Below are positions 6,164-59,017 of a stretch of DNA of 64,000 nt, in pieces. This stretch comes from Kitasatospora paranensis (lineage in GTDB: Bacteria > Actinomycetota > Actinomycetes > Streptomycetales > Streptomycetaceae), in the NCBI RefSeq assembly GCF_039544005.1, contig NZ_BAABKV010000001.1, forward strand, positions 1-64,000. Reading direction: 5' to 3'. The position numbers were made by a program, and so were the translations under genes. How positions within the stretch are numbered: the stretch's first letter is position 1; every line of letters starts with the position of its first letter. The notes beneath the pieces were generated by a model. It worked only from the letters and a program-made list of their open reading frames with translations. It searched no databases and was not told where the DNA came from.

Positions 6164-6939
6164 CCAACCGGCACGGCGTAACGCGGGGGCAAGGCGGACG
6201 TCTTGGCGGACGTGGAGGGCAGATCGGGGCATGGCGGCCCCTTGGTGGGTAGCGGGGATGGCTGCGGCGCCCCGGTTGGGTCGGTTCCGGGGCGCGGGGC
6301 CGGGCTGTGCCGGGTGCTCGGAGATGCAAGAGCTGTCACCGCCTTAGGGGGCCGGTGACAGGACGGCGGGGACACGCGGCGCAGCGCGGGGCGGTCGGGG
6401 CCGAGGAGTGGGGCCTGGCGTCCCCTGGTGAGGGGCTCTCCCCGGGCCGGTGACAGGCAGACAGGTTCCGGTGGCCCGGGCGGTCTTTGGGGACGGGCGC
6501 CGGCAGCGGGGCGCACCGTGGCCGGCCGGGGCGACGCGGGCGTGGAGCGTGGGCATCCCCAGCGGCTGGGTGGCCGACGGGATCGCCGGGGGCGGCGCTG
6601 GCTGCCGCGGCCCGGGATGTGCCCGGGGCGGCCCGGGGTATGTACGGCCCCGGGCCGCCCTCGGGGGTGCGGCTGCGCGGGCTGCCAGCCGGGGCACCGG
6701 GGGGTTGAGCGGCCGGGCCGGAACCCGTGCGCAGCCGGAACGGGGTCCCCGCAGGGGGTTCGGGAACGGTCCGTCGCCTCATCCAACGACCGGCCCCGTC
6801 CCGGGACACCCCCGGCGCCCTGGGACGCGCCGTAGGCGGGGGCAGGCCGGTGCAGGGGCCGGTCGCGCTCGGGGGTCCGCGACCGGCCCGCCTACCCATC
6901 AGCGTCACCAGCCACGGCGGACCCGTCCACCAGGCGCCA
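6164..6939. other. Gene-poor stretch
   Basis: Long open frames on both strands are Pro/Arg/Gly-rich and overlap one another, and none shows a domain or a ribosome-binding site. I see no gene here. Confidence 0.45.
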
Positions 6940-7785
6940 CTACGCACACCGCCACCCGAGCACACCGGTCCCCCACCCGGACCACCGCCAGGCCGGCCGC
7001 CCGCGGCACAGCGGCCCCGGGCCGCCAGGTCCGGGATTGACCACCTCGAGGAGCTCGTTCATGCGCGGATCGTCGAAGCCCTCGACGTCGCTGTCGGCGT
7101 CGAGCCGTCCGGGGGCCAGGTCGTACAGGGTCAGCCCGTCACCGCGTGGGGTGTGGAGCAGCAGGAGGCGCGGCCCGTTGGTCTCGCGGTTCCAGACCGG
7201 GAGGAGCCGTCGGTGAACCAGGCCGGCCTCGTCATTGAGCCGGTCCGGCGCGCCGGCAGTCGGCCGGCCCTCGTCGTGGAGCGGGTCCACCCCAGTCGCC
7301 GAGCAGTGCGGTGGAGGCCGACCCCCGGGCCGGACGGAGCCCGCGGCCCGGGACGGGCAGCGGAGCGACAGCACCCCTGCACCGGCGACGCCGGGCGCAG
7401 CGAAGGCCTCGGCGAGGATGAGGCGGACGTGGCGTTCGTCGACGCCGGCTTCCCGGGCGGCCCGGATCCTGGCGGTGATGTCGCCGGGCAGGCGTCCGGT
7501 GGGTCGCGGCGCCCAGGTACCGGTGTCGTCGGCGCCCGCTGGGCCGTGGCCGGTCACGGGCGCGTCCTGGCGGCCGGGCACGCCGGTTCGTGCCAGACGG
7601 TGGTCACCGCGGTCCCGCCCGGGAGTCGGCGCTCCGTGGTCCAGGTCCGGCAGCAGAACACGGCCGGAGACGGACCGGGCTCTTCCACCCCGGCGGCCGA
7701 CGGAGAAGGCGCAGCGGTGCGGGCGCTCGGCCTGCGGCGCCGCGGGCGCTGCGCGGGAGAGCTCGTCATCTCCCGCGTGTCCCAC
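6940..7785 (-). CDS. Possible hypothetical gene, boundaries unsure
   Basis: Two segments of this frame look protein-like: DITARIRAAREAGVDERHVR followed by LILAEAFAA, and RLNDEAGLVHRRLLPVW through DSDVEGFDDPRMNELLEVV. The DNA between and around them does not. The gene may be broken by indels like others in this window, or only fragments may remain. No family is recognised. Confidence 0.3.
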   Translation of the reverse strand: MGHAGDDELSRAAPAAPQAERPHRCAFSVGRRGGRARSVSGRVLLPDLDHGAPTPGRDRGDHRLARTGVPGRQDAPVTGHGPAGADDTGTWAPRPTGRLPGDITARIRAAREAGVDERHVRLILAEAFAAPGVAGAGVLSLRCPSRAAGSVRPGGRPPPHCSATGVDPLHDEGRPTAGAPDRLNDEAGLVHRRLLPVWNRETNGPRLLLLHTPRGDGLTLYDLAPGRLDADSDVEGFDDPRMNELLEVVNPGPGGPGPLCRGRPAWRWSGWGTGVLGWRCA

Positions 7786-8014
7786 GCCCGTCGATCACCC
7801 AACCCCGGTGCTACCCGGACGGGGCAGCCCAACAGGGCCGGGTGTCCGCCCGCGCAGTGCCCAGGCGCAGGTGCAGGTGCAGGCTGCATCCGAAGCCCGG
7901 ACAGCCTTCGCCGTCGGGAGTGACGTCCGCCAGGCCACCCTCGGGCGCCTGGAGGAACTCGCTACCTCGGACGGATGCCCGTCGCTCGTCCTTGCCCGGC
8001 AGGCATTTCCCGTG

Positions 8015-10356
8015 TCAGCGAAGGAGAGGGGCGCTGAGGGCGCCCAGGAGCGCGGTCTGCTGCTCGGTCAGCTTCCCCTCGGTGCGAGCCTTGTCCTGCT
8101 TGCGCAGCCAGGTGCCCGGCCGGAACGTCGGGTCGTCGCCGAGGCCGGTGCGGTTGGCCGGACCGTCGAGGGTTCCGCCGGCTGCGAGGTAGGCGAGCAG
8201 GCGCCGGTAGGAGCGGTTCCAGTCCGGCTCCAGTCGCCACAGCTCGTCCAGGGCGTCGAGCTTCGCCGTCTGGTCGGGGGTGAGGTTCTCGGCCTTGCGC
8301 TGGCGGCGCATCCACGCGCCCACGGCGTAGTCGTCCAGCTTCGCGGTCGCCGGGATGGCGAGGTGGCCGTGCTGGTGGTGGAACGCGGCGGCGTAGGCGG
8401 CCCCGCGTTCCCAGGCGTTGGCGTTCTTCGACCAGATCATGCCGAGCGCGTCCAGCTCCGAGATCCGCGCGGCATCGAGCAGGCCCTGGCCGTTCAGGTG
8501 GCGCTGGCGGGTGAGCCAGGAGATCAGCTCCGCGTGCTTCGCCTTGTCGGTGGGGTCGAGGTGGCCGTGCTCGATGTGGAACCGCGTCGCCAGGCCGTGC
8601 ATCCGCTGCCACTCGACCGCGCGCGGGTTGAACGCCCGCAGCTTCACCGCCTGGAGGATCGCGCCCGCGTGGTGGCGGGCGTTGATCTTCAGCCACTCGA
8701 CCGGCGACTCCCCCGCGGCCGGCTGCTCCCCCTCGGCGGGGCCGGCGCCGGCTGCCTCGTCCTCGGAGGCCCCCGTCGTGGTGGTGTGCGCGGAGCCCTG
8801 GGAGCGGTGGGCCCGCAGCTCGGTGATCCGGCCGACCACGCGGGCGTCGTGCGCGGCGAGGGCGCGCAGGACGCGCCAGATGGTGCGGAAGGAGGAGGCT
8901 TCGATCTCGGTGTCGGCCTCGGCCTTCACGGCCTCTCCGGCGTCGTGGACCTCGGCCGGGTCGGCGGTGGCGGTGTCGTCGCCGACATCGGGCGAGGGAA
9001 GGTAGACGGGGATGATGACCCAGGAGACCTTGCCCTGCCGGTAGGACTGGCGCAGCGCGCGGCCGACGGCCTGGACGATGTCGATGACCGAGCTCTTGGG
9101 GTCGGCGAAGCAGATGGCGTCCACGGCTCGGACGTCGATGCCCTCGGACAGGAGGCGGGCGTTGCAGAGGATTCCGCACTCCTCGCCGTCGTCGCCGGTG
9201 TGGGCCTTGAACTCGGTGAAGGCCTGCTTGCGGTGCTTGAGCTTGTCAGTGCCGGCGATCGCCTTCGCCCAGATCCGCTCGGGCCGGTCGGCGTCGGGCA
9301 GCAGCTCGGCGCTCTCCGGCAGGGTGCCGGCGAACTCCCGCGCCGCCGTCACCCGGGAGTGGAAGGTGATGACCCGGCGCAGGCCGAGGTCGGCGACCGC
9401 GCGCAGCACCGCGATCTGCAGGGCCAGCCTGAGGAGTTCCTCGTTGCTGCGCTGGGAGCGGAGGTCGGCGACGGCGGGGAGGTTGAGGAGTTCGCGCAGG
9501 TCCTCGTCGGTGACGACGGGGACCAGGACGCGGTAGTCGGCGAGGTAGCCGTGCTCGATGCCCTGTCCGAGGGTCCAGGTGAAGCAGGTCTTGCCGTAGA
9601 TCTCCTCCGAGTCCATGGAGCACAGGGCGGGCAGCTTCTCGCCGTCGGCGGTGAGGTCGGACAGGCCGGCCTTCGCCGTGCGGTCGTCGGCGATCCGCGG
9701 GGTGGCGGTGAAGTACAGGCGGCGCTTCGCCGGGATCTTCGCGTCGTCGTGGACGGCCGCCCAGGCCTTCCCTCGGCGCCTGCCGTGCGGTGGGCCTCGT
9801 CGATGACGACGAGGTCCCACGCGGGAAGGCCGTGCAGCTGGTGTGCGGCGGTGATCCGCTCCATGGAGGCGTAGGTGGCGTAGACGGTGACCGGCTCGCC
9901 CGCCTTCGCGGAGGCGACCAGGTCGGCGATGCGCGGGGCCTGGGTGGTGACGGCCGCCTCGATCCGCCCGCCCGCCTCCGCGCTCTCCAGTGCCTCCTGG
10001 CGCGAGCACGCCGCCACCGCCACACCGCGGCGCCCGCCCAGCAGCGACCAGGACTCGGCGGTCTGCTCCAGCAGCTCGATCGTCGGGACCAGGACCAGCA
10101 CCCGGCCGCGCGCCGCGAGGCGCCGGGCGCAGTTCGCGGCGATCAGCGTCTTCCCGGAGCCGGTGGCCAGGACCAGCGTCGCCCGGCCCCCGTTCCTCAC
10201 CTCGCGCACCGCGGCCGCGACCGCGTCCTTCTGGAACCAGTGCAGCGTGATGGGCGCCAGCGTGCCGAGCGGCTGGGCGGGCACGGGCGGCTGCGGGGTC
10301 GGGCGCAGCCCGGCCGGCACGGCGGCCTGGGTGGCGGTGGTGGTCGTGGTCTCCAC
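8015..10356 (-). CDS. DEAD/DEAH-box helicase with helicase-associated repeats (one frame break)
   Basis: About 780 residues after repair. It opens with a superfamily 2 helicase core: Q-like region (LHWFQKDAVAAAVREV), Walker A ATGSGKT, motif II DEAH, motif III TATP, and motif VI in QAVGRALRQSYR. The C-terminal third holds several Trp-containing helicase-associated modules (GHLDPTDKAKHAELISWL, GHLAIPATAKLDDYAVGAWM), as in large actinobacterial plasmid and subtelomeric helicases. The frame breaks near 9771, just after DEAH. One added G/C restores AEGKAWAAVHDDAKIP. The start is the GTG at 10356, with GAAGGAG upstream. It follows the Tap/Tpg-like pair on the same strand, so a role in end or plasmid maintenance is possible. 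Defence is the other plausible role. Confidence 0.8.
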
Positions 10357-38276: not shown

Positions 38277-39326
38277 CTACGGCGCGGGGTCGGAGGGCCG
38301 GGCCGCCGGGGTGTCCGCTGCGGGGCGCCGCGGGGGCGGCACCGGTGTCCGGCCCGCTCGGCCGCCGGCGGCGAGGTGGGCGAGCACGAAGCGCTCCAGG
38401 CCGCTGCCGGGGTGCAGGTAGACGCGGCTACGGGCGGCTTCGATCTGCAGGCCGTTGAGTTCGTTCACCATGGTGGTGGGGATCGGCGCCAGGACGTCGT
38501 GCGGTGACCTGCCAACGAGGAGGTGATGGGGGCCGAGCGGCAGGACGATGGCATTCGAGTCGCCCAGGGCCATGCAGTAGGTGAGGGTGCTCCCGTCCCG
38601 GCGGACGGTCAGGGCCGGTGTGTCGCCGATGAGGAACTGGCCGCTGGCGGGGATCAGGATCTCCAGGCAGCTCTCGCGGATCGCCGCCCTGGTCTTGTGG
38701 AACATCTCCTCGATGCCGATCCGCAGGTTGTACCCGCTCAGCTCGTCGTCGCGGACGGTCCGCATGAGGTCCTCCGCCCACATCGCCAGGGTCTGGGGGT
38801 CGGCGACGTGTTCGCCGCTGTGCTTCAGGTAGTCGGCGCGCAGCAGGTCGGCGTGGACGGTGAGCAGCTTGGTGCGCTGACGCTCGTAGAGCGCGGCGAA
38901 GATCTGGTCGTGGAGAGCGCGGTAGTGCAGGGAGCGGGCCCAGTGCAGGGCGATGAAGTCCTTCAGTACGAGGACGTACTCCTCGTGCTCGAAGATGTCG
39001 CCGCGTTCCACCGCGTCGGCGGCGGCCGGCAGCAGGTTCTCGACCCGGCTCCAGACCTCCTCCAGCGAGGCGGAGGCAAACGGCACGAAGTCCGGCACCG
39101 TGCCGCAGGTCTTGATGCTCCTGGTCCTGTGCCGGTTCGTGGGGCGGTCCAGGTCGAACGAGTAGACCTGGTGCCCCGCGCTGCCGGCGTGCGCCGCGAA
39201 GCGTTTGAGCAGCACCCGGGAGACGACGTGCTGGTTCACCACCGGCGCACGTCCGTCCGCGCGGAGCGTCTCGATCCGGGTCTGCGTCCGCTCGGCGGCA
39301 GACCGCCAGTTGGGCTGCTCGTTCAT
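38277..39326 (-). CDS. DUF4238 family protein, copy 1
   Basis: A 349-residue protein of the DUF4238 family. VVNQHVVSRVLLKRFAAH is the family's N-terminal signature, followed by a helical middle (ERGDIFEHEEYVLVLKDFIA) and a C-terminal FLIGDTPAL strand. Function is unknown. It is a tandem paralogue of the next gene; near-identical blocks include TCGTVPDFVPFASASLEEVW. Both lie directly downstream of the TniA/TniB module on the same strand and may be its cargo. Confidence 0.8.
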   Translation of the reverse strand: MNEQPNWRSAAERTQTRIETLRADGRAPVVNQHVVSRVLLKRFAAHAGSAGHQVYSFDLDRPTNRHRTRSIKTCGTVPDFVPFASASLEEVWSRVENLLPAAADAVERGDIFEHEEYVLVLKDFIALHWARSLHYRALHDQIFAALYERQRTKLLTVHADLLRADYLKHSGEHVADPQTLAMWAEDLMRTVRDDELSGYNLRIGIEEMFHKTRAAIRESCLEILIPASGQFLIGDTPALTVRRDGSTLTYCMALGDSNAIVLPLGPHHLLVGRSPHDVLAPIPTTMVNELNGLQIEAARSRVYLHPGSGLERFVLAHLAAGGRAGRTPVPPPRRPAADTPAARPSDPAP

Positions 39327-39447
39327 CCGCCCAGTCTCCCGGACGGGAGCGACAGACCCGCCCGCCGGCGGAAGACCGCCCTGCCCGGCCCGGCCGGGAG
39401 CCGGGGCGCAGCAGGCGGGCGGCCGTGGCTGCCCCGGGTGCGGGGGT

Positions 39448-40464
39448 CTACGGTGTGGTGCCTGCGTCGCGTCGCGGGGGCTCCAGCGGTGTCCGGTCCG
39501 CCCGGCCGCCGGCGGCGAGGTGCGCGCGCACGAAGTGCTCCAGGCCGCTGCCGGGGTGCAGGTAGACGCGGCTGTAGGCCGCCTCGACCTGCAGCGTGTT
39601 GAGGCAGTCCACCATGTCGGCGGGGATCGCGGCCATGTCGTTGCTCGGTGCCCTGCCGACGAGGAGGTGCTTGCGGCCGAACGGCAGGACGATGGCGGCG
39701 GAGTCCTCCAGGGCCGTGACGCAGGAGAGCACGGTTCCCTCCCGGCGGACGGGCAGGGCCGGGATGTCGCCGATGAGGAACTCGCCGCTCTTTGGGGTGA
39801 CGATCTCCAGGCAGGTCTCCCGGATCGCCGTCCTGAGCTCGCCGAACATCCTCTCGATGCTGACTCTCAGGTCGGCCCCGCTCCGGAGGTTGTCGGTGAA
39901 CGGCTGCATGAGCCGGGCGCCGATGGCCTCCCGGGCCCCCTTGGCTGCGACGTACAGGCCGGTGTGCTGCCGGTAGGTGGCGCGCAGCCGGTCGGTGGGT
40001 ATGGCGGCCAGGGCATCCCACGCCCGCTCGTAGGCTGCCGCGGCGGCGCGGTAGTGCATCGCGAGGTAGTGCAGGGAGCGGGCCCGGTGCAGGGCGATGA
40101 AGTCCTTCAGCGTGAGGATGTGCTCCTCGTGCTCGAAGATGTCGCCGCGCTCCACCGCGTCGGCGGCGGTCGGCAGCAGGTTCTCGACCCGGCTCCAGAC
40201 CTCCTCCAATGAGGCGGAGGCAAAGGGCACGAAGTCCGGCACCGTGCCGCACGTCTTGGTCGATCCGGGTCTGTGCCGGTTCGCGGGGTGGTGGAGGTCG
40301 AAGGAGATGACCCGGTCGTTTGCCGCGAAGCGCTTGAGCAGGACCCGGGAGACGACGTGCTGATTCACCACCCGCCGTTGTCCCTCCGGCTGCAGCTCCT
40401 CGATCTGGGCCAGGATCCGTTCGGCCTCGACGGCACGCTGTCCACGTTGTTCGGGTACGTCCAT
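39448..40464 (-). CDS. DUF4238 family protein, copy 2
   Basis: A 338-residue paralogue of copy 1. NQHVVSRVLLKRFA, TCGTVPDFVPFASASLEEVW and YLHPGSGLEHFVRAHLAAGG are shared almost unchanged. The middle (about residues 130-190) has diverged strongly. It begins eight bases after the stop of the unknown protein of the transposition module, so it is probably in the same operon. The mix of frozen and drifted blocks suggests duplication with specialised middles. Confidence 0.8.
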   Translation of the reverse strand: MDVPEQRGQRAVEAERILAQIEELQPEGQRRVVNQHVVSRVLLKRFAANDRVISFDLHHPANRHRPGSTKTCGTVPDFVPFASASLEEVWSRVENLLPTAADAVERGDIFEHEEHILTLKDFIALHRARSLHYLAMHYRAAAAAYERAWDALAAIPTDRLRATYRQHTGLYVAAKGAREAIGARLMQPFTDNLRSGADLRVSIERMFGELRTAIRETCLEIVTPKSGEFLIGDIPALPVRREGTVLSCVTALEDSAAIVLPFGRKHLLVGRAPSNDMAAIPADMVDCLNTLQVEAAYSRVYLHPGSGLEHFVRAHLAAGGRADRTPLEPPRRDAGTTP

Positions 40465-47154: not shown

Positions 47155-47463
47155 TCACCGCGCCCGGCACCGGTGGTATTGCGCCCCGGTGCCCGGCGGC
47201 ACGCCGGGCACCGGGGCCTGCTGCCAGGGGTCGGCGGCCAGCGCCGCGACCACAGCTCCGGACGGCAGCCTGCGGCCGGCCACGGCCAGCAACTGCGGTG
47301 CCAGGACAGCGGCCTGCAGTCGCCAGGCCGCGGAGCGGCAGGCGACCTGCAGCACGTCGTGCTCATCGATGCCGAACGGCCGGACATTGCGCGCCACCTC
47401 CACCCCCACGGCGCCTGTCCACCACGACAGGTCACCGAAGCACCCGGGTCGCTTCAGGGACAT
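47155..47463 (-). CDS. DUF721/DciA-like domain protein
   Basis: A 102-residue protein. WWTGAVGVEVARNVRPFGID, then DVLQVACRSAAWRLQAAVLA and LLAVAGRRLPSGAVVAALA follow the DUF721 pattern (W...VG, then a strand with SAAW, then a helix). DciA is the bacterial replicative helicase loader, and short copies occur on actinobacterial accessory DNA. It might serve plasmid-like replication here. The usual N-terminal helix is missing. Assignment by eye. Confidence 0.5.
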   Translation of the reverse strand: MSLKRPGCFGDLSWWTGAVGVEVARNVRPFGIDEHDVLQVACRSAAWRLQAAVLAPQLLAVAGRRLPSGAVVAALAADPWQQAPVPGVPPGTGAQYHRCRAR

Positions 47464-47580
47464 CGCAGGTCCTCTCTCACCGGGCGCCCATCGTGGCGCC
47501 TGTGGCCGGACAACGCCGCACTCCCGGTCGGCGTCGCGGGCGCCGGTATCGCGGCGAGCCGATGCCCGGCCGGACGGGAT

Positions 47581-48521
47581 TCAGCGCAGAACGGCAGTGC
47601 GGGAAGCCAGGGCCGCCCGCAGCCGACCGCGCAACCGCGGCAACGGATCCCGCGATCCCAGGAGGGCGAGGAACTCCGCGGTGTCCCAAGTGGTGAGCGA
47701 CCCCGTCCGAGCCTGGTACCAGCCAAGACGCTCAATGCGGTAGACGTCGTCGTAGTCCAGGAGCAGGTAGCCGGCGAGCTGGTGGATGTCCCTCCCCGGA
47801 AGCTTGTCCGGGGAGGTCGTCGCCTTGACGTCGACGAGAGTGCGGTAGGCGATCCAATCGGCGTCCGCGCCTCCCACATCGGCGCTGCCGCGAAAGTCGG
47901 AGCGAGGACGACCTGGTCGGGTGCAGTCGCCGCGCGCAGCGCCTCCAGGCCCCCGTGGCAGGCCCGTTCCACCATCGCAGCGATGTCCCGCACCTCATGG
48001 TCGGGCACGGCCCGCATCAAGGTCTCCAGGGTGAGAGAACCGTCGGCCTCGGCCAGCGGCATGGCGGGCCAGACCCTTCCGGTGCGGAAGACCTCCTCGA
48101 ACAGTGCCGCGGCCCAGGCGAGGCGCGCGAGGCGATCCTCCGTCTCGGACGCCCGGGCGACGGGCAGTACGCGGCCGTCGAGCCGCTCGCGAGCAATGAG
48201 GTCGTCGATCGTGTCGAGCAGTTCAGCGCCGACCAGCCTCAAGACGGGGGCGTATTCGGCCGAGATCGCAATCCCCGCCTCCACCGAGCGGCCGCGCGGC
48301 TGAACCGAGCGCAGCGACCAGCGCAGGCGACGGTCGATCGCCGCGCCGATGGTGCCCCACCGCGGCGCGCTCCCGACTGGCGGCGCGGGCCGCTGGGCCG
48401 GAAGACGGGGGGACAGAGCCGCCCGGTAAGAGGCCCGCAGCGCGCGGAGGGCAGGGAACTCGTCGTCGAAGAAGGCCCGCAGGGCGGAGCTCTTGTCGTC
48501 GAGAAGGCCGGTCGGGTTCAC
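47581..48521 (-). CDS. Nuclease-fold protein of unknown role (one frame break)
   Basis: About 313 residues after repair. The helical first half (ALRAFFDDEFPALRALRASY, RLARLAWAAALFEEVFR) is unassigned. After the break near 47892, one added C gives FRGSADVGGADADWIAY followed by LVDVKATTSPDK and HQLAGYLLLDYDD. D...VDVK is a PD-(D/E)xK-type core. The start is the GTG at 48521 with GAGGAACC upstream. No restriction partner is nearby. Confidence 0.65.
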
Positions 48522-50517: not shown

Positions 50518-51702
50518 ATGGACAGACCTCGTTCGGTCGAGCGGTCTCTGCGCGAGGCCGCGCCCCACGAGATTTTCGACGTGGTCCGCTCCGCGATCGT
50601 GCGCCGCCATCGTGCCTCGGCGGTGGACCTGCTGCTGGTCGACTACGCCATGACGAGGTTGCAGCCCGTCGGGGTGCTGCCGCACACCCGTCCGCCGGTA
50701 TCGGTGAACGACAGTGCTCCGGGCCGTGCGTTCGGCGCCCAGGAACCGCATTGCGTGCATGACCGATCGGCGTCCGAGGTGACGGTGTACCTGCCGGTCA
50801 GTGTCCGGGGCGACCGGCTGGGTGTCCTCGGCGTCACCCTGCCGGGGGACGGCGAGCCGGCCGCCGCCGTGCTGGCGGACCTGCAGGAGTGCGCCGACGC
50901 GCTGGCGCACGAGGTGGTGGTCGCGGAGCGGGACACGGATCTCTTCCTGCAGGCGCGTCGGGCGGAGCGGCTGACACTGGCCGCCGAGATGCAGTGGCAG
51001 TTGCTGCCCGGGCGCTCCTGTTCCCGGCCGGAGTACAGCCTGGGCGCCCAGTTGGAGCCCGCCTACGCGATCTTCGGTGACTGCTTCGACTGGTCGGCGT
51101 CGGCCGACGACCTGTATGTGACCGTGAGCAACGGCATGGGCGAGGGCATCGACGCCGCGTTGCTGACGAACCTCGCCATCAACGCCCTGCGCAATGCCCG
51201 CCGCGCCGGCCTGAGCCTGAGCGATCAGGCCTATCTCGCCGATCAGGCCGTGTACGGACAGCACGGGGGAAGCCAGTACGTGTCGGCACTGTTGTTCCGT
51301 TTCCATCTTCCGACCGGACAGGTGGAGATTGTCGATGCCGGCTCCCCGAAGGTCTGGCGTGTGCGCAGCGGGGTGATCGAGCCGATCGAGCTGGAGGCGC
51401 AGATGCCCCTGGGCATGTACGAGGACACTTCCTACCTGCCGCAGCACTTGCGGGTCGAACCCGGAGACCGCCTGCTCTTCATCAGCGACGGCGTCTTCGA
51501 CGCGCTGTCGCCGGGCGGTGAGAAGTACAGCCTCCGCGCGCTGGCCGCCTCGATCAGCGGCACCCGTCTCCTGCCCGCCTCGCAGGTGCCGAGAGTGATG
51601 CTGCAGGAGCTGACGGGCCACCGCGGGTCCGGCCCGGCGGCGGACGACTCCCTGGTGATGTGCCTGGACTGGCACGGCCCCACCGCCGACCGCGACCGCT
51701 GA
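50518..51702 (+). CDS. SpoIIE/PP2C-type phosphatase with GAF-like front, copy 1
   Basis: A 394-residue serine phosphatase of the RsbU/SpoIIE group. The N-terminal 140 residues are GAF-like (SEVTVYLPVSVRGDRLGVLG). The phosphatase core shows FGDCFDW, NGMGEGIDAALL, ISDGVFDAL and ADDSLVMCL. The first motif departs from the usual GGDFYD but keeps its metal-binding Asp. Such enzymes dephosphorylate STAS anti-anti-sigma factors. GTG codons at 50509 and 50512 are better spaced from GAAGAAGG and may be the true start. Confidence 0.85.
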   Translation: MDRPRSVERSLREAAPHEIFDVVRSAIVRRHRASAVDLLLVDYAMTRLQPVGVLPHTRPPVSVNDSAPGRAFGAQEPHCVHDRSASEVTVYLPVSVRGDRLGVLGVTLPGDGEPAAAVLADLQECADALAHEVVVAERDTDLFLQARRAERLTLAAEMQWQLLPGRSCSRPEYSLGAQLEPAYAIFGDCFDWSASADDLYVTVSNGMGEGIDAALLTNLAINALRNARRAGLSLSDQAYLADQAVYGQHGGSQYVSALLFRFHLPTGQVEIVDAGSPKVWRVRSGVIEPIELEAQMPLGMYEDTSYLPQHLRVEPGDRLLFISDGVFDALSPGGEKYSLRALAASISGTRLLPASQVPRVMLQELTGHRGSGPAADDSLVMCLDWHGPTADRDR

Positions 51703-51847
51703 CCTCGAAATCACCCGGGGGTGGTCCTCATGTGGAGAAACGGCAGCTCCTTTGCGAGAAGCCCGCACGGGGCAGGGAGCAGGTTGCCAATCAGGGGCAG
51801 CACCGGAGATGGTTGCCTCCAGGCAAACATCTAGGTGATGAGGTGAG

Positions 51848-51866
51848 GGATTCGCCCAGCGAATCC
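51848..51866. repeat. Perfect 8-3-8 hairpin before the second phosphatase
   Basis: GGATTCGC-CCA-GCGAATCC ends seven bases before the presumed TTG start at 51874. It could end transcription from the first phosphatase, bind a regulator or control translation. Confidence 0.55.
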
Positions 51867-51873
51867 TCGATAT

Positions 51874-53523
51874 TTGGTTTCCACTCAAGCGCGCACTCCT
51901 TCGGACGCGGGACCGGACCTCGACTGGGTGGGGGCCCCGTACCCGGTGCTGGTCGCCGATGCCCGGGGCGCTGTGGTGCACTGCAATGACGCCGCAGGTC
52001 TTCTCCTGCCCGCCGCGGCGCCCGGGGCACCTCTGGCGGACGTGGCCCCGGCCTGGCTCTGTGCCGCGCACGCCGCGCTGGGCTCCCCCGGTCCGCACGC
52101 CGCGCCGGGCTCCCCCGGTCCGCACGCGGCCCCGGACACCGAAGAGCCGCCGCGCGGAGGCATCGGCGGACGGCGTTTCCGGGCGCACCCCAGTGTGCGG
52201 GGCGACGGCCGGGTGGCGTGGTGGCTGGTGGACGACACCGACCACCAGCTCGTGCGGGAGGCTCTGCGCATGGAGCAGGAGCGGGCCGCGTTCCTCGCGA
52301 AGGCGTCCAGTGTCCTGCTCTCCTCCCTCAACCTGGGACGCTGCATGGACGTGGCCGCGCAGATGGCCGCCGAAAGCCTCGCGGACGCCGCGCTGGCCGT
52401 CGCGGCGGTTCCCGGGCGCCGGATGCCGGTGGTGACCTGCCTGCGCGGCGGCACTCCCACCCAGTCCACCGTGACGGTGGACCCCGACGACGTACCGGGT
52501 CTGGGCGAGGCGCTGCGCGGATTCCCGCCGGTGCCCTCGCGGTGGATCGACCCGTCCACGGCTCCCGAGTGGATGCTGCCCCAGGGGCTGGGGCCGGTCG
52601 GCTCGATCGTGATCACCCCGCTGCCCGGGCACGGTGTGCCGGCCGGAGCGCTCATCCTGCTGCGCAAGGCGGAAACCGCAACCTTCAGCGACGAGGAGGA
52701 GGTCTTCTGCCGGCTGTTCGCCGCCCGTGCCGGGGCCGCGATGTCGGCCGCCCGCCTGTACGCGGAGCAGAGCGCGATCACCGACGTGCTGATGCGTGAG
52801 CTCATGCCGCCGGTCCTGCACCAGATCTCCGGGGTGGACTTCGCCGGCCGCTACCGGCCGTCCGCGGACCACGAACGCATCGGGGGCGACTTCTACGACG
52901 TGCACCCCGCGGCCGTCGAGGGCGAGGCCTCCCTGGTCTCCCTCGGGGACGTGTGCGGCAAGGGCCTGGAAGCCGCCGTACTGACGGGCAAGATCCGTAA
53001 CACCCTGCACGCCCTGCTGCCCCTGTCCGGCGACCACCAGCGGATGCTCAACCTGCTGAACACGGCGCTGCTCAGCTCCCACCACACCCGCTTCGCCACC
53101 ATGGTCCTGGCCTCCGCCGTACGACGCGGGAACATGGTGGACCTCACTCTCACCAGCGGCGGCCACCCCAGCCCGCTGATCATCCGCGCGAACGGCACCG
53201 TCGAGGAAGCCGACACCCACGGCACCCTGATCGGAGCCATCCCGAACATCTCCGCCACCACCGCCGCCGTCTCCCTGGCGCCCGGCGAGTCGTGCGTCCT
53301 CTACACCGACGGCATCACCGAAGCCAAGGGCGGGCCGCTGGGCGGCGATCTGTTCGGTGAGGAACGCCTCAAGCGCGCCCTGTCCGGATGCGCGGGCATG
53401 CCCGCCGAGGGGATCGCGGAACACGTACAGATGCTGGCCGCCCAATGGCTCGGCAACCGTCCCCACGACGACATGGCCGTCGTCGTGATCTCCGCCCCCG
53501 CACCCACCACCTCAGCGCGGTGA
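51874..53523 (+). CDS. PAS-GAF-PP2C (SpoIIE-type) phosphatase, copy 2
   Basis: A 549-residue sensor phosphatase. PAS-like region at about residues 18-120 (WVGAPYPVLVADARGAVVHC), GAF at about 130-300, phosphatase from about 320 (FAGRYRPS, IGGDFYDVHP, GDVCGKGLEAAV, YTDGITEAK, NRPHDDMAVVVI). All metal-binding Asp residues are present. It probably acts on the STAS protein encoded 1.2 kb downstream. The only upstream start is a TTG at 51874 without a clear ribosome-binding site, so the N-terminus is uncertain. Confidence 0.88.
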   Translation: MVSTQARTPSDAGPDLDWVGAPYPVLVADARGAVVHCNDAAGLLLPAAAPGAPLADVAPAWLCAAHAALGSPGPHAAPGSPGPHAAPDTEEPPRGGIGGRRFRAHPSVRGDGRVAWWLVDDTDHQLVREALRMEQERAAFLAKASSVLLSSLNLGRCMDVAAQMAAESLADAALAVAAVPGRRMPVVTCLRGGTPTQSTVTVDPDDVPGLGEALRGFPPVPSRWIDPSTAPEWMLPQGLGPVGSIVITPLPGHGVPAGALILLRKAETATFSDEEEVFCRLFAARAGAAMSAARLYAEQSAITDVLMRELMPPVLHQISGVDFAGRYRPSADHERIGGDFYDVHPAAVEGEASLVSLGDVCGKGLEAAVLTGKIRNTLHALLPLSGDHQRMLNLLNTALLSSHHTRFATMVLASAVRRGNMVDLTLTSGGHPSPLIIRANGTVEEADTHGTLIGAIPNISATTAAVSLAPGESCVLYTDGITEAKGGPLGGDLFGEERLKRALSGCAGMPAEGIAEHVQMLAAQWLGNRPHDDMAVVVISAPAPTTSAR

Positions 53524-53551
53524 ACGGACACACCCGAGGCAGGTTCACCGC

Positions 53552-54722
53552 ATGAGCACGTCCTCCCCGCCCCGTCCTCCCCACGCCGGCCACGCGAAAG
53601 AGCCCGCCGAGCAGGTGCGGCACCCCGGCCACGCGAAAGAGCCCGCCGAGCAGGTGCGGCACCCCGGCCACGCGAAAGAGCCCGCCGAGCAGGTGTGGCA
53701 CGCCGTCTCGGCCATGGACGAGTACGCGGCCACCGAACTCGTACTGCGCATGCTGGACGAGGGAACCGCCCCGGAGGACGTCCTGCTCGATGTGATCGCC
53801 GTGGTGCAGAGCCGCGTCGGTGAGGAATGGGCGGCCGACCGGATCAGCGTCGCCCAGGAACACGCGGCGACCGCCATCAACGACCGTGCCGTCACCGCGG
53901 TGAGCATGCACCCCACCGCCCGCACCACCGCCACCCGGGGCCGGATCACGGTGGCCTGCGTGGACGGCGAATGGCACGCCCTGCCGGCCCGCCTGCTCGC
54001 AGAGGTCCTGAAACTGCGGGGCTGGCACGTCGACTACCTGGGCGCCCAGGTACCCACCCCGCATCTCATCGCCCACCTCCACCACACCCGAGCGGACGCG
54101 GTCGCGCTCTCCGGCTCCATCGCCACCAGGCTGCCGACCGCGCACGCGGCGATCACCGCCTGCCAGGCCGTCGGGGTCCCCGTCATCGTCGGCGGTGCCG
54201 CCTTCGGCCCCCGGGGCCGGTACGCGCGACTGCTGGGCGCCGACGCCTGGGCACCGGAGGCCCGCGCCGCCGCCGACCACCTCGCCAGAAGTCCGCTGCC
54301 GCGACCGCAACCCGACCACCAGCAATTCGACGACCTGCCGCACCTGGCCGACCAGGAATACACCACGGTCGCCCGTCACAGCGCCACCCTCGTGGGGACC
54401 GTCCTCACCGCGTTGCAGGACACCGTCCCCGCCCTGCGCGCCCACAACGACGCCCAGCGTGAACGCACCGCAGAAGACCTCGCGCACATCGTGGAGTTCC
54501 TCGCCACCGCCCTCTACCTCGACGACGACGAACTCTTCACCCGGTTCATCACCTGGACCGCGCAGATCCTCGCGGCACGAGGCGTACCCCCACAGCCTGC
54601 CCCCCGCCCTGGATCTCCTCGCCCGTGAACTCCACGACTTCCCCCGGGCCACCCGCATCCTCAAGGCCGCCACGCACACCCTCACCACCGCCCACCCCAC
54701 CGCCGCCGGGAACACCGCATGA
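53552..54722 (+). CDS. B12-binding sensor protein with Wx9EH signature (one frame break)
   Basis: About 389 residues after repair. Three 13-residue repeats (HPGHAKEPAEQVR) open the protein. A B12-binding helical cap follows, with W93 and E103-H104: the Wx9EH motif of CarH-type adenosylcobalamin light sensors. The Rossmann-type B12 domain has E140-x-H142 and VDYLGAQVPTPHLIAHL. A helical C-terminal region may bind a partner. The break near 54589 in a C run, corrected by one base removed, lets the gene end at 54722 in an ATGA overlap with the STAS gene, which supports the repair. No DNA-binding domain is present, so it probably signals through partners. Confidence 0.8.
53588..53704 (+). repeat. 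In-frame 39-base tandem repeat, three copies
   Basis: Copies at 53588, 53627 and 53666, nearly identical, each encoding 13 residues at the N-terminus of the B12-binding protein. Identity at the DNA level suggests recent expansion, so copy number may vary among strains. Confidence 0.85.
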
Positions 54723-55129
54723 CCACACACCCCCGCCACCTGCAGCTGACCACGGTCGACACCCAGGACAGCATCCGCATGGAGCTCCACGGCGACCTCG
54801 ACCACACCAGCGCCGACCTCCTCCTCGACGAGGTCACCGCGCAACTCGCGCGGCGGACCGCCCTGACCGACCTGCATCTGCACTGCGCGGACCTCGGCAC
54901 GGTCGACCCCATGGGCCTGTCGGCCCTGCTGATGATCGGCCGCCGCACCACCGCGGCAGGCGTACGTCTGCACCTGGACGACAGACCTGCCAAGCTGGAC
55001 CGGCTCCTGGACCTCACCGGAACCCGCGAACACCTCACTCATCCCCACCCCATCGGTGCCGCAAAAACCCCGGCGACCCAGGACAGCGCCCTACCGGCCC
55101 GCCCCACCGGACCGGACGGAACCACCTGA
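54719..55129 (+). CDS. STAS domain protein lacking the phosphorylatable Ser
   Basis: A 136-residue protein with an anti-sigma factor antagonist fold: LTTVDTQDSIRMELHGDLDH, DLHLHCADLGTVDPMGLSAL. In RsbV/SpoIIAA the loop reads D-S-x-G-L with Ser as phosphosite; here it is D63-P-M-G-L, so the usual Ser is absent. It may be a constitutive antagonist, or phosphorylated elsewhere. It overlaps the B12-binding gene as ATGA. A Pro/Thr-rich tail overlaps the region before the MarR gene. Confidence 0.8.
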   Translation: MTTHPRHLQLTTVDTQDSIRMELHGDLDHTSADLLLDEVTAQLARRTALTDLHLHCADLGTVDPMGLSALLMIGRRTTAAGVRLHLDDRPAKLDRLLDLTGTREHLTHPHPIGAAKTPATQDSALPARPTGPDGTT

Positions 55130-55178
55130 ACCACTGCCGGCCCTCCACCTGGCACAAGCACCCACCGACGGGGAAACC

Positions 55179-55682
55179 GTGACCGCACCAGACGCCACCC
55201 CCCACACCTGGCACGAAGCAACCCGGTCCGCCAGCACCATCACCGAACTCCTCGACGTCATGTGGGAGCACGCCAGACACTCCACCACCGGCACCACCGC
55301 CCCCAGCTCCACCTCCCAGCTGCGCCTGATGTACGTCGTCGACCGCGAAAACGGCATACGGATGCGCACCGTATGCCAACGCCTCGCCTCCGCTCCCCCG
55401 ACGGTGACCCGCATGTGCGACCGGCTGCAGGCCATCGGCTTCCTCCAACGACTGCCCTGCCCCGACGACGGCCGCGAGATCACCCTGCAACTCACCCGCG
55501 CCGGCAAAGAACACCTGCAACGCATCCGCGAACAACGCGACACCATGCTCCACCAGGCCATCAACAGCATGCCCCCCACCGAACGCCGTGCCCTGGCCAC
55601 CGGACTCACAGCCCTCCGGACACACCTGGACACCACCCCCGGCGAGAGACACCAAACACCCCACAACCACTCCGCAGCCTGA
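55179..55682 (+). CDS. MarR family transcriptional regulator
   Basis: A 167-residue winged-helix protein. SQLRLMYVVDRENGIRMRTV, PPTVTRMCDRLQAIGFLQRL and DGREITLQLTRAGKEHLQRI are the MarR HTH, recognition helix and wing. The GTG at 55179 gives the shortest sensible N-terminus. It is the last gene of the signalling cassette and a plausible output or autoregulator. Confidence 0.85.
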   Translation: MTAPDATPHTWHEATRSASTITELLDVMWEHARHSTTGTTAPSSTSQLRLMYVVDRENGIRMRTVCQRLASAPPTVTRMCDRLQAIGFLQRLPCPDDGREITLQLTRAGKEHLQRIREQRDTMLHQAINSMPPTERRALATGLTALRTHLDTTPGERHQTPHNHSAA

Positions 55683-56594: not shown

Positions 56595-57185
56595 GTGTGG
56601 GGCGGCATGGACGAACGGGAGAGGCGGCGGCAGCGGGCCGGGGAGGACGGCGGCCGGGAAACCGGCGGCCGCGGCACCCTGTCGCCCACCGTTGTCCGGG
56701 CCGCGCGGCAGGACGTGGCCGCGGCTGCAGTCCGGCTCCCCGGCGCCGCCGGATGGCTGGACGGAGCCGGGACCGCCGAGCACAGCGGTCCGTTGGTGGC
56801 CGAGGTCTGGGTCTTCGATGTCCGGGGCCGCAGGATCCTGCTGGAGGAACACCCGTGGCGTGGGCTTGTGCCGCCGGGCGGGAAGGTCGATGCCGGCGAG
56901 ACGCCGCGCCGGGCGGCGGCCAGGGAGCTTCTCGAGGAGACGGGTCTGTCCGCCGTGCTGCTGAACAGGCCGGCGATGGCTTTCGTGCGGCGCTTCCGTG
57001 CGGACTCGGCGGCGACCACGCTCGGCCTGTCGTACGCGGCGGTCGTCGACCCGCGGCAGCCCCTGCGGTGCGAGCCCGGTCAGCCCGCCGCCTGGTTCGC
57101 TCTCGACAGCGCCTGGGCGTCCGCCTTTCCGGAGGACCGGGACCGCATGCGCCGCTTCTTCGGCTCCCTGGCGACGGCCCGGTGA
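56595..57185 (+). CDS. Nudix hydrolase, in frame with the WhiB gene
   Basis: A 196-residue frame with a full Nudix box (GGKVDAGETPRRAAARELL then EETGL), preceded by VAEVWVFDVRGRRILLEEHP. The first 20 residues (VWGGMDERERRRQRAGEDG) are the C-terminus expected of the upstream WhiB protein, so the true Nudix start is probably further in. No separate ribosome-binding site is evident. Read through the amber codon, it would form a WhiB-Nudix fusion. Confidence 0.75.
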   Translation: MWGGMDERERRRQRAGEDGGRETGGRGTLSPTVVRAARQDVAAAAVRLPGAAGWLDGAGTAEHSGPLVAEVWVFDVRGRRILLEEHPWRGLVPPGGKVDAGETPRRAAARELLEETGLSAVLLNRPAMAFVRRFRADSAATTLGLSYAAVVDPRQPLRCEPGQPAAWFALDSAWASAFPEDRDRMRRFFGSLATAR

Positions 57186-58048: not shown

Positions 58049-59017
58049 ATGCCCGCGAACCGCTCGACCATGACCAGAATCGCCGTGATCACGGCCACCG
58101 CAGCCCTCTGCAGCCCGCTCCTCAGCGCATGCGAAAGCACTGCGAGAACCGGCTCGGACCCAGCTCCCGCATCATCTGCCCCCGTGTCCGTCCAGGGCAT
58201 CGCGATCAGCGCCTCGCCCGAGCTCGCCGCCAAGCTGCCGGCCGACATCAGGAAGGCGGCCGTCATCCGGGTGGCCTCGGACATCCCCTACCCGCCGTTC
58301 GAGATGTACGAGAGCGAGGGCAGCAAGAAGATCGTCGGCATCGACGTCGATCTCGGCGCCGCCGTCGGAGCCCGCCTCGGCATCAGGTTCGACTTCCAGG
58401 CCCAGAAGTTCGACGGGATCCTCCCGGCGATCCAGGCCGGGAAATTCGACGCTGTCATGTCGGCCATGACCGACAAGAAGGAACGCGAGAAGGCCGTGGA
58501 CTTCGTCGACTACATCAACGCCGGCCCTGGATGGCTCGTCAAGAAGGGCAACCCGGACGGGATCAAGGTCGTCACCGACGTGTGCGGCAAGGCCGTCTCG
58601 GTGCAGACCGGCACCAACCACCAGAAGATCCTCGACCAGCGCCAGGAGCTCTGCAAGTCCCAGGGCAAGCCTCCGATCACCGTGATGGCCTTCCCGAAGG
58701 ACTCCGAGGCGCAGCTCGCCCTGCGCAGCGGGAAGGTGGTGGCGGACTTCCTCGACGAGGTGACGGCGGTCTACGTTTCCGAGACCGCGGAGGGAGGCAC
58801 CGTCTTCGACGCCGTGACCGGCCGGGAGGCGGTCGGCGAGACCAGCGCCTCCCCCATCGGAATCGGCGTCTCGAAGAGTGCCTCCGGCCTCAAGGAGGCC
58901 GTCCAGGGCGCCTTGCAGTCCCTGATGGACGACGGCACATACGGCAAGATCTTGGCCGCCCGGCATCTGCCCGGCATCGCGATCGCGCAGGCGACGATCA
59001 ACGGCGCCCTGGACTGA
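58049..59017 (+). CDS. Solute-binding lipoprotein of an amino-acid type ABC transporter
   Basis: A 322-residue extracellular binding protein (SBP_bac_3 type). The N-terminal signal ends in the lipobox PLLSAC with Cys28. VIRVASDIPYPPFEMYESEG, GIDVDLGAAVGARLGIRFDF and GKFDAVMSAMTDKKEREKAV are the family's lobes. Substrate is probably an amino acid or related polar compound. No permease or ATPase gene is nearby, so it is an orphan or works with a distant transporter. An alternative ATG lies at residue 8. Confidence 0.9.
   Translation: MPANRSTMTRIAVITATAALCSPLLSACESTARTGSDPAPASSAPVSVQGIAISASPELAAKLPADIRKAAVIRVASDIPYPPFEMYESEGSKKIVGIDVDLGAAVGARLGIRFDFQAQKFDGILPAIQAGKFDAVMSAMTDKKEREKAVDFVDYINAGPGWLVKKGNPDGIKVVTDVCGKAVSVQTGTNHQKILDQRQELCKSQGKPPITVMAFPKDSEAQLALRSGKVVADFLDEVTAVYVSETAEGGTVFDAVTGREAVGETSASPIGIGVSKSASGLKEAVQGALQSLMDDGTYGKILAARHLPGIAIAQATINGALD

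Follow-up and report, generated by a model that had tools for sequence, protein, structure and literature searches.

A probable photocobilin-controlled partner-switching operon in the terminal region of the Kitasatospora paranensis chromosome

The first 64 kb of the 8.41-Mb single-contig genome of Kitasatospora paranensis (NZ_BAABKV010000001.1, positions 1 to 64,000; this whole stretch is the window referred to below) contain a five-gene cassette that is probably a photocobilin-controlled, light-gated partner-switching operon. We consider this the best explanation because the cobalamin protein of the cassette is homologous to photocobilins, its SpoIIE and STAS neighbours are conserved, and a link of this kind has been put in print for Saccharothrix (PMC10979010). 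A broader claim, to which we give slightly less than an even chance, is that a standalone two-chromophore photocobilin gating a co-translated PP2C/STAS pair forms a widespread actinobacterial switch, extended in one Streptomyces clade by an atypical PP2C and by an output through MarR, and that the set can ride on linear megaplasmids.

All five genes lie on the forward strand, and their open reading frames and Pfam matches confirm the order given in the original prediction, namely SPOa, SPOb, the B12 protein, STAS and MarR. SPOa is a PP2C/SpoIIE phosphatase of 394 aa (50518-51702; Pfam SpoIIE, E = 6e-36), and SPOb is a second PP2C/SpoIIE phosphatase, with a GAF-like region and a canonical SpoIIE domain (51874-53523; Pfam SpoIIE, E = 7e-41). 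The B12 protein, 358 aa as read, matches the Pfam families B12-binding_2 and B12-binding (53552-54628), and is followed by a STAS-domain antagonist of 136 aa (54719-55129; Pfam STAS_2, 1.7e-7) and by a MarR-family winged-helix regulator of 167 aa (55179-55682; Pfam MarR, 2.9e-9), whose open reading frame spans 55056-55682 and whose start was placed near 55179, where alignment shows it to be conserved. The B12 and STAS genes had also been predicted to overlap; as read they do not, because the B12 frame ends at 54628 and the STAS frame begins at 54719. A NUDIX hydrolase gene (56595-57185) and a gene for a family 3 solute-binding protein (58049-59017) lie 3' of the cassette, and elsewhere in the window (38277-40464) there are two adjacent minus-strand genes whose DNA sequences are approximately 78% identical to each other.

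Homology identifies the B12 protein as a two-chromophore photocobilin, one of a known kind of light sensor that uses vitamin B12 together with a bile pigment. Its best sequence match in the PDB is SasPcob (8J2W, E = 8e-80, residues 46-348), with CarH far behind, and the top fold matches of its AlphaFold2 model, which is of moderate confidence (mean pLDDT 70.9), are 8J2W, 8J2X and 8J2Y. Pfam, 8J2W and the model together delimit a cap (residues 45-116), a cobalamin-binding Rossmann domain (131-243) and a photoglobin domain from about residue 264. The elements of an adenosylcobalamin (AdoCbl) cap, W-x9/10-EH and an E/DxH lower ligand, are present as W93-x9-E103-H104 (53828-53863, forward strand), corresponding to Trp61 and Glu71-His72 of SasPcob, and as E140-x-H142, in which His142 (53975-53977, forward strand) is the predicted lower cobalt ligand and corresponds to His108 of SasPcob; the Wx9EH and ExH motifs that had been noted before are thus in place. 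The photoglobin domain carries Asp309 (54476-54478) and Trp335 (54554-54556), predicted bilin contacts on the forward strand that are equivalent to Asp270 and Trp296 of SasPcob, and as read its last helix falls in another frame. The N-terminus is encoded by a 39-bp tandem repeat of 3.2 copies (53582-53705, forward strand). A Pfam search for a MerR-type DNA-binding domain, as in CarH/LitR, gave no helix-turn-helix match in the B12 protein, in agreement with the earlier description of it as lacking a DNA-binding domain.

SasPcob, the standalone photocobilin of Saccharothrix syringae, has published AdoCbl photochemistry and dark and light structures, and the paper that defined photocobilins reported binding of AdoCbl and biliverdin, green and red photoconversion and effects on partner proteins (PMC10979010). 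The same paper suggested STAS, SpoIIE and PP2C partners for SasPcob, and called the role of standalone photocobilins less clear (PMC10979010). Because its best match of known structure has this photochemistry, the proposal of a B12-based photoreceptor is well supported and right in kind; its reliance on CarH as the model was not, the nearest model being a photocobilin.

We further compared the cassette to 80 named photocobilin loci from a scan of public genomes, all of them actinobacterial, in which genes were called by codon usage (calling by GC3 only put genes on the wrong strand). The nearest relatives of the window protein are in Streptomyces. A SpoIIE/PP2C gene corresponding to SPOb lies directly upstream of the photocobilin gene in 78 of the 80 loci, and in 67 the next gene downstream encodes a STAS protein; raw reading of the loci outside these 67 added three in which a STAS-like motif follows the photocobilin gene. 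Judged by these frequencies, the cassette is a real, conserved unit and its gene order is not due to chance. A 4-bp overlap of the SpoIIE stop with the photocobilin start is possible in 77 of the 78 loci, and a 4-bp overlap of photocobilin and STAS genes is found in 64 of the 67; because of these overlaps at the two junctions, co-translation of the three genes is suggested. The gene neighbourhood is evidence of a functional link, not of its direction. A MarR gene was found within two genes after the photocobilin gene in 27 of the 80 relatives and was not found there in the other 53. SPOa precedes SPOb in 10 Streptomyces loci, in most of which a MarR gene was called, and a quick tree places these loci in one group with the window. 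All five genes also occur on two linear Streptomyces megaplasmids, with a DNA identity of about 83%. A literature search on SpoIIE, STAS, cobalamin and MarR, and on stressosome, B12 and light in Streptomyces, returned nothing.

SPOa and MarR seem to have been added as a module, because a trio of SPOa, MarR and STAS genes also stands alone, with no photocobilin, at 7.12 Mb of the same genome (7116000-7132000, positions 6373-8705), where it consists of an SPOa paralogue, a divergent MarR gene and a STAS gene with the motif FCDCVGLG. The two phosphatases of the cassette differ in their metal-binding motifs. Those of SPOb are intact (GGDFYD, GDVCGKG, YTDG and HDDMA), and its GAF-like region matches DevS (2Y79). 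In the second metal motif of SPOa, Asn replaces Asp (VSNGMGEG, aligned with GDVVGHG of Rv1364c, 3KE6); because all ten orthologues carry this Asn (10/10), it is, on this alignment, a feature of the family and not a sign of decay.

Alignment of the window STAS protein with RsbV (6M36) and SpoIIAA (1TID) places Pro64 (54908-54910, VDPMGLS) at the phospho-serine position, so that the phosphorylatable Ser or Thr of a STAS antagonist is lacking in the window. Among the relatives, alignment shows the serine to be kept in 65 of the 67 STAS proteins, the exceptions being L077 with Pro and L073 with Ala. A count by regular expression had suggested frequent loss of this serine in relatives, which the alignment led us to reject; nor is the Pro unique to the window, since L077 has it as well. 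In two loci (L043 and L046), the STAS protein encoded after the photocobilin is longer (229 and 251 aa) and has the motif DYAGLSAL, with Tyr at the phosphosite. No HATPase kinase gene was found near the window cassette, and the genome has more than 50 HATPase_c_2 matches; an RsbW-like kinase gene lies within six genes of the photocobilin gene in 31 of the 80 relatives.

Two runs of five C on the forward strand coincide with losses of reading frame. At the first (53495-53499), SPOb shifts frame, and the C-terminus found in relatives (LSAVNGHTRGRFTA) runs on in another frame to a TGA (53553-53555) that shares bases with the photocobilin ATG at 53552 (ATGA). At the second (54587-54591), the photocobilin loses the frame of its relatives (net -2 in alignments), and its last helix and tail continue in another frame (54592-54722, forward strand; HSLPPALDLLARELHDFPRATRILKAATHTLTTAHPTAAGNTA) to a TGA at 54720-54722. 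This out-of-frame tail HSLPPALDLLARELHDFPRATRILKAATHTLTTAHPTAAGNTA aligns with the C-termini of relatives, the megaplasmid copies included, in which the photocobilin ends in the last helix and a stop codon overlapping the STAS start. A 4-bp ATGA overlap is thus present in the window (54719-54722), belonging to the other frame, that of the C-terminus of relatives, which is here disconnected; as read, the last photoglobin helix is missing from the photocobilin.

The cassette lies within a terminal inverted repeat of at least 45.3 kb (18702-64000), the inverse copy of which is at the other chromosome end; the left end reaches 18.7 kb further in the assembly. Both C5 frameshifts are identical in the other copy. 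Between the two copies there are 11 indels and 0 substitutions. Most of the indels fall in runs of G or C or in short repeats, and some make a reading frame longer or shorter in just one of the copies; indel errors in the assembly are therefore likely. Both C5 frameshifts could be such errors. A minus-strand gene at 47454-48521 also looks frameshifted, near 47.9 kb, and the copy at the other end has a different indel, at 47950. The second copy, the SPOb frameshift, the photoglobin domain and the loss of the STAS phospho-serine had all gone unmentioned in the original prediction.

Heme oxygenase, which makes biliverdin, is encoded in 28 of 32 photocobilin-bearing genomes. Among 36 relatives of the same genus, it was found in 7 of 8 genomes with a photocobilin vs. 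13 of 28 without (Fisher p = 0.05); with 20 more Streptomycetaceae pooled, these frequencies are 25 of 28 vs. 13 of 28 (p = 0.001, uncorrected for relatedness). In the genome of the window no heme oxygenase gene was found, and it is absent from the syntenic place behind methionine aminopeptidase (2788000-2797000), where two relatives have it. Taken together, the photocobilin frameshift, the change of the STAS Ser to Pro, the missing adjacent kinase and the missing heme oxygenase make normal function of the window's own copy uncertain.

Under the preferred explanation, of light-gated partner switching, AdoCbl would be bound between the cap and Rossmann domains through His142, with Trp93, Glu103 and His104 around the adenosyl group, and intact relatives would in addition bind biliverdin in the C-terminal photoglobin domain. 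Green light, or red light by way of the bilin, would break the Co-C bond and change the shape of the protein. The light state may then alter contact with the co-translated GAF-PP2C phosphatase SPOb, with the STAS protein, or with both, and the altered contact would set the phosphorylation state of the STAS antagonist, depending on which an anti-sigma kinase of the RsbW type, whose gene adjoins the cassette in some relatives and presumably acts in trans here, would hold or free a sigma factor. SPOa and MarR may be a second small module, joined to the first in one Streptomyces clade, that provides a further input and a transcriptional output. The photochemical steps of this scheme are drawn from homology to SasPcob, and those that follow from gene order and known partner-switching systems. 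That the signal passes through STAS and phosphatase partners had been predicted, and the conserved operon and the prior suggestion for SasPcob speak for it; the altered parts of the window copy do not. Counting against the scheme in the window are the STAS Pro, the lack of a near kinase, the missing last photoglobin helix, the lack of heme oxygenase and the SPOa Asn.

Several of these points would also be accounted for if the window copy were a pseudo-operon undergoing decay in a rapidly evolving end of the chromosome, with genuine frameshifts and with the functions of STAS and photoglobin lost. We regard this as a serious possibility, at rather less than an even chance, and it is compatible with a light-gated switch at the level of the family. 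Two frameshifts in neighbouring genes, identical in both terminal copies, fit such decay, as do the STAS Ser to Pro change and the missing heme oxygenase. However, the values of dN/dS over intact stretches, calculated against four relatives, range from about 0.12 (SPOa) to 0.48 (STAS) and are in line with those of relatives compared to one another, the assembly carries indel noise (0 substitutions but 11 indels over the 45.3 kb shared by the copies), and Pro or Ala at the phosphosite occurs in two relatives as well. If the frameshifts are real, the copy would, with its unphosphorylatable STAS site and no heme oxygenase, at best be a green-light-only, altered or decaying one.

The remaining alternatives concern what the cassette senses and where its signal goes. 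The output could be mainly transcriptional, through the MarR protein and not an anti-sigma kinase, as might be suspected from the MarR gene that follows in 27 of 80 relatives, from the separate SPOa, MarR and STAS module elsewhere in the genome and from the lack of a kinase near the window cassette; we consider this unlikely, given that no MarR gene was found there in 53 of 80 relatives, while SpoIIE and STAS genes are nearly always present, and that kinases are near in 31 of 80. Somewhat less likely still, in our estimate, is that the photocobilin passes on to the phosphatase/STAS pair not light but the level of AdoCbl or the ratio of cobalamin forms. Cobalamin occupancy alone can shift partner activity, AdoCbl-bound AbDPcob being less active than the apo form (PMC10979010), and no heme oxygenase to supply a bilin was found in the genome of the window; yet the residues for adenosyl photochemistry are all kept, as are the bilin residues Asp309 and Trp335, and heme oxygenase is encoded in most of the relatives' genomes (28/32). 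A corrinoid carrier for a methyltransferase, which weak matches to MtbC/MtgC corrinoid proteins might suggest, was rejected as almost certainly wrong, since the photocobilin matches are far better, the protein has an extra photoglobin domain and there is no methyltransferase among the five cassette proteins.

Photocobilins as a kind, and their proposed link to STAS and SpoIIE proteins, are already known (PMC10979010). Added here are how strongly and how widely the operon is conserved, its extension by MarR and SPOa in one clade of Streptomyces and on megaplasmids, and warnings against taking the window copy for an intact example; that copy is of lesser weight because it is possibly altered. 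The near-universal GAF-PP2C and STAS neighbours, with their stop/start overlaps, name candidate partners of standalone photocobilins, and offer a possible path by which visible light could act on gene expression in Streptomyces, Amycolatopsis, Saccharothrix and mycobacteria. Of the known systems, the RsbRST stressosome is approached in five other Streptomyces loci, where RsbR and RsbS genes adjoin the cassette (one set was checked by Pfam), although not in the window. The cassette resembles RsbU/RsbV/RsbW and SpoIIE/SpoIIAA/SpoIIAB in combining a PP2C phosphatase with a STAS antagonist that aligns with RsbV and SpoIIAA, and differs from them in its proposed photocobilin input, its Pro at the phosphosite and the absence of an adjacent kinase. 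With CarH/LitR (5C8D, 3WHP) the window protein shares the cobalamin cap and Rossmann core, with Wx9EH and ExH, whereas a DNA-binding domain at the N-terminus is present in CarH and not here, and a photoglobin here and not in CarH. It is most like SasPcob (8J2W/8J2X; PMC10979010), which has the same cap, cobalamin domain and photoglobin, equivalents of the W, EH and H residues and of Asp270 and Trp296, and for which STAS and SpoIIE partners have been predicted; by comparison, the N-terminus of the window protein contains a tandem repeat, a frameshift deprives it, as read, of the last helix, and its operon adds an atypical PP2C and a MarR gene.
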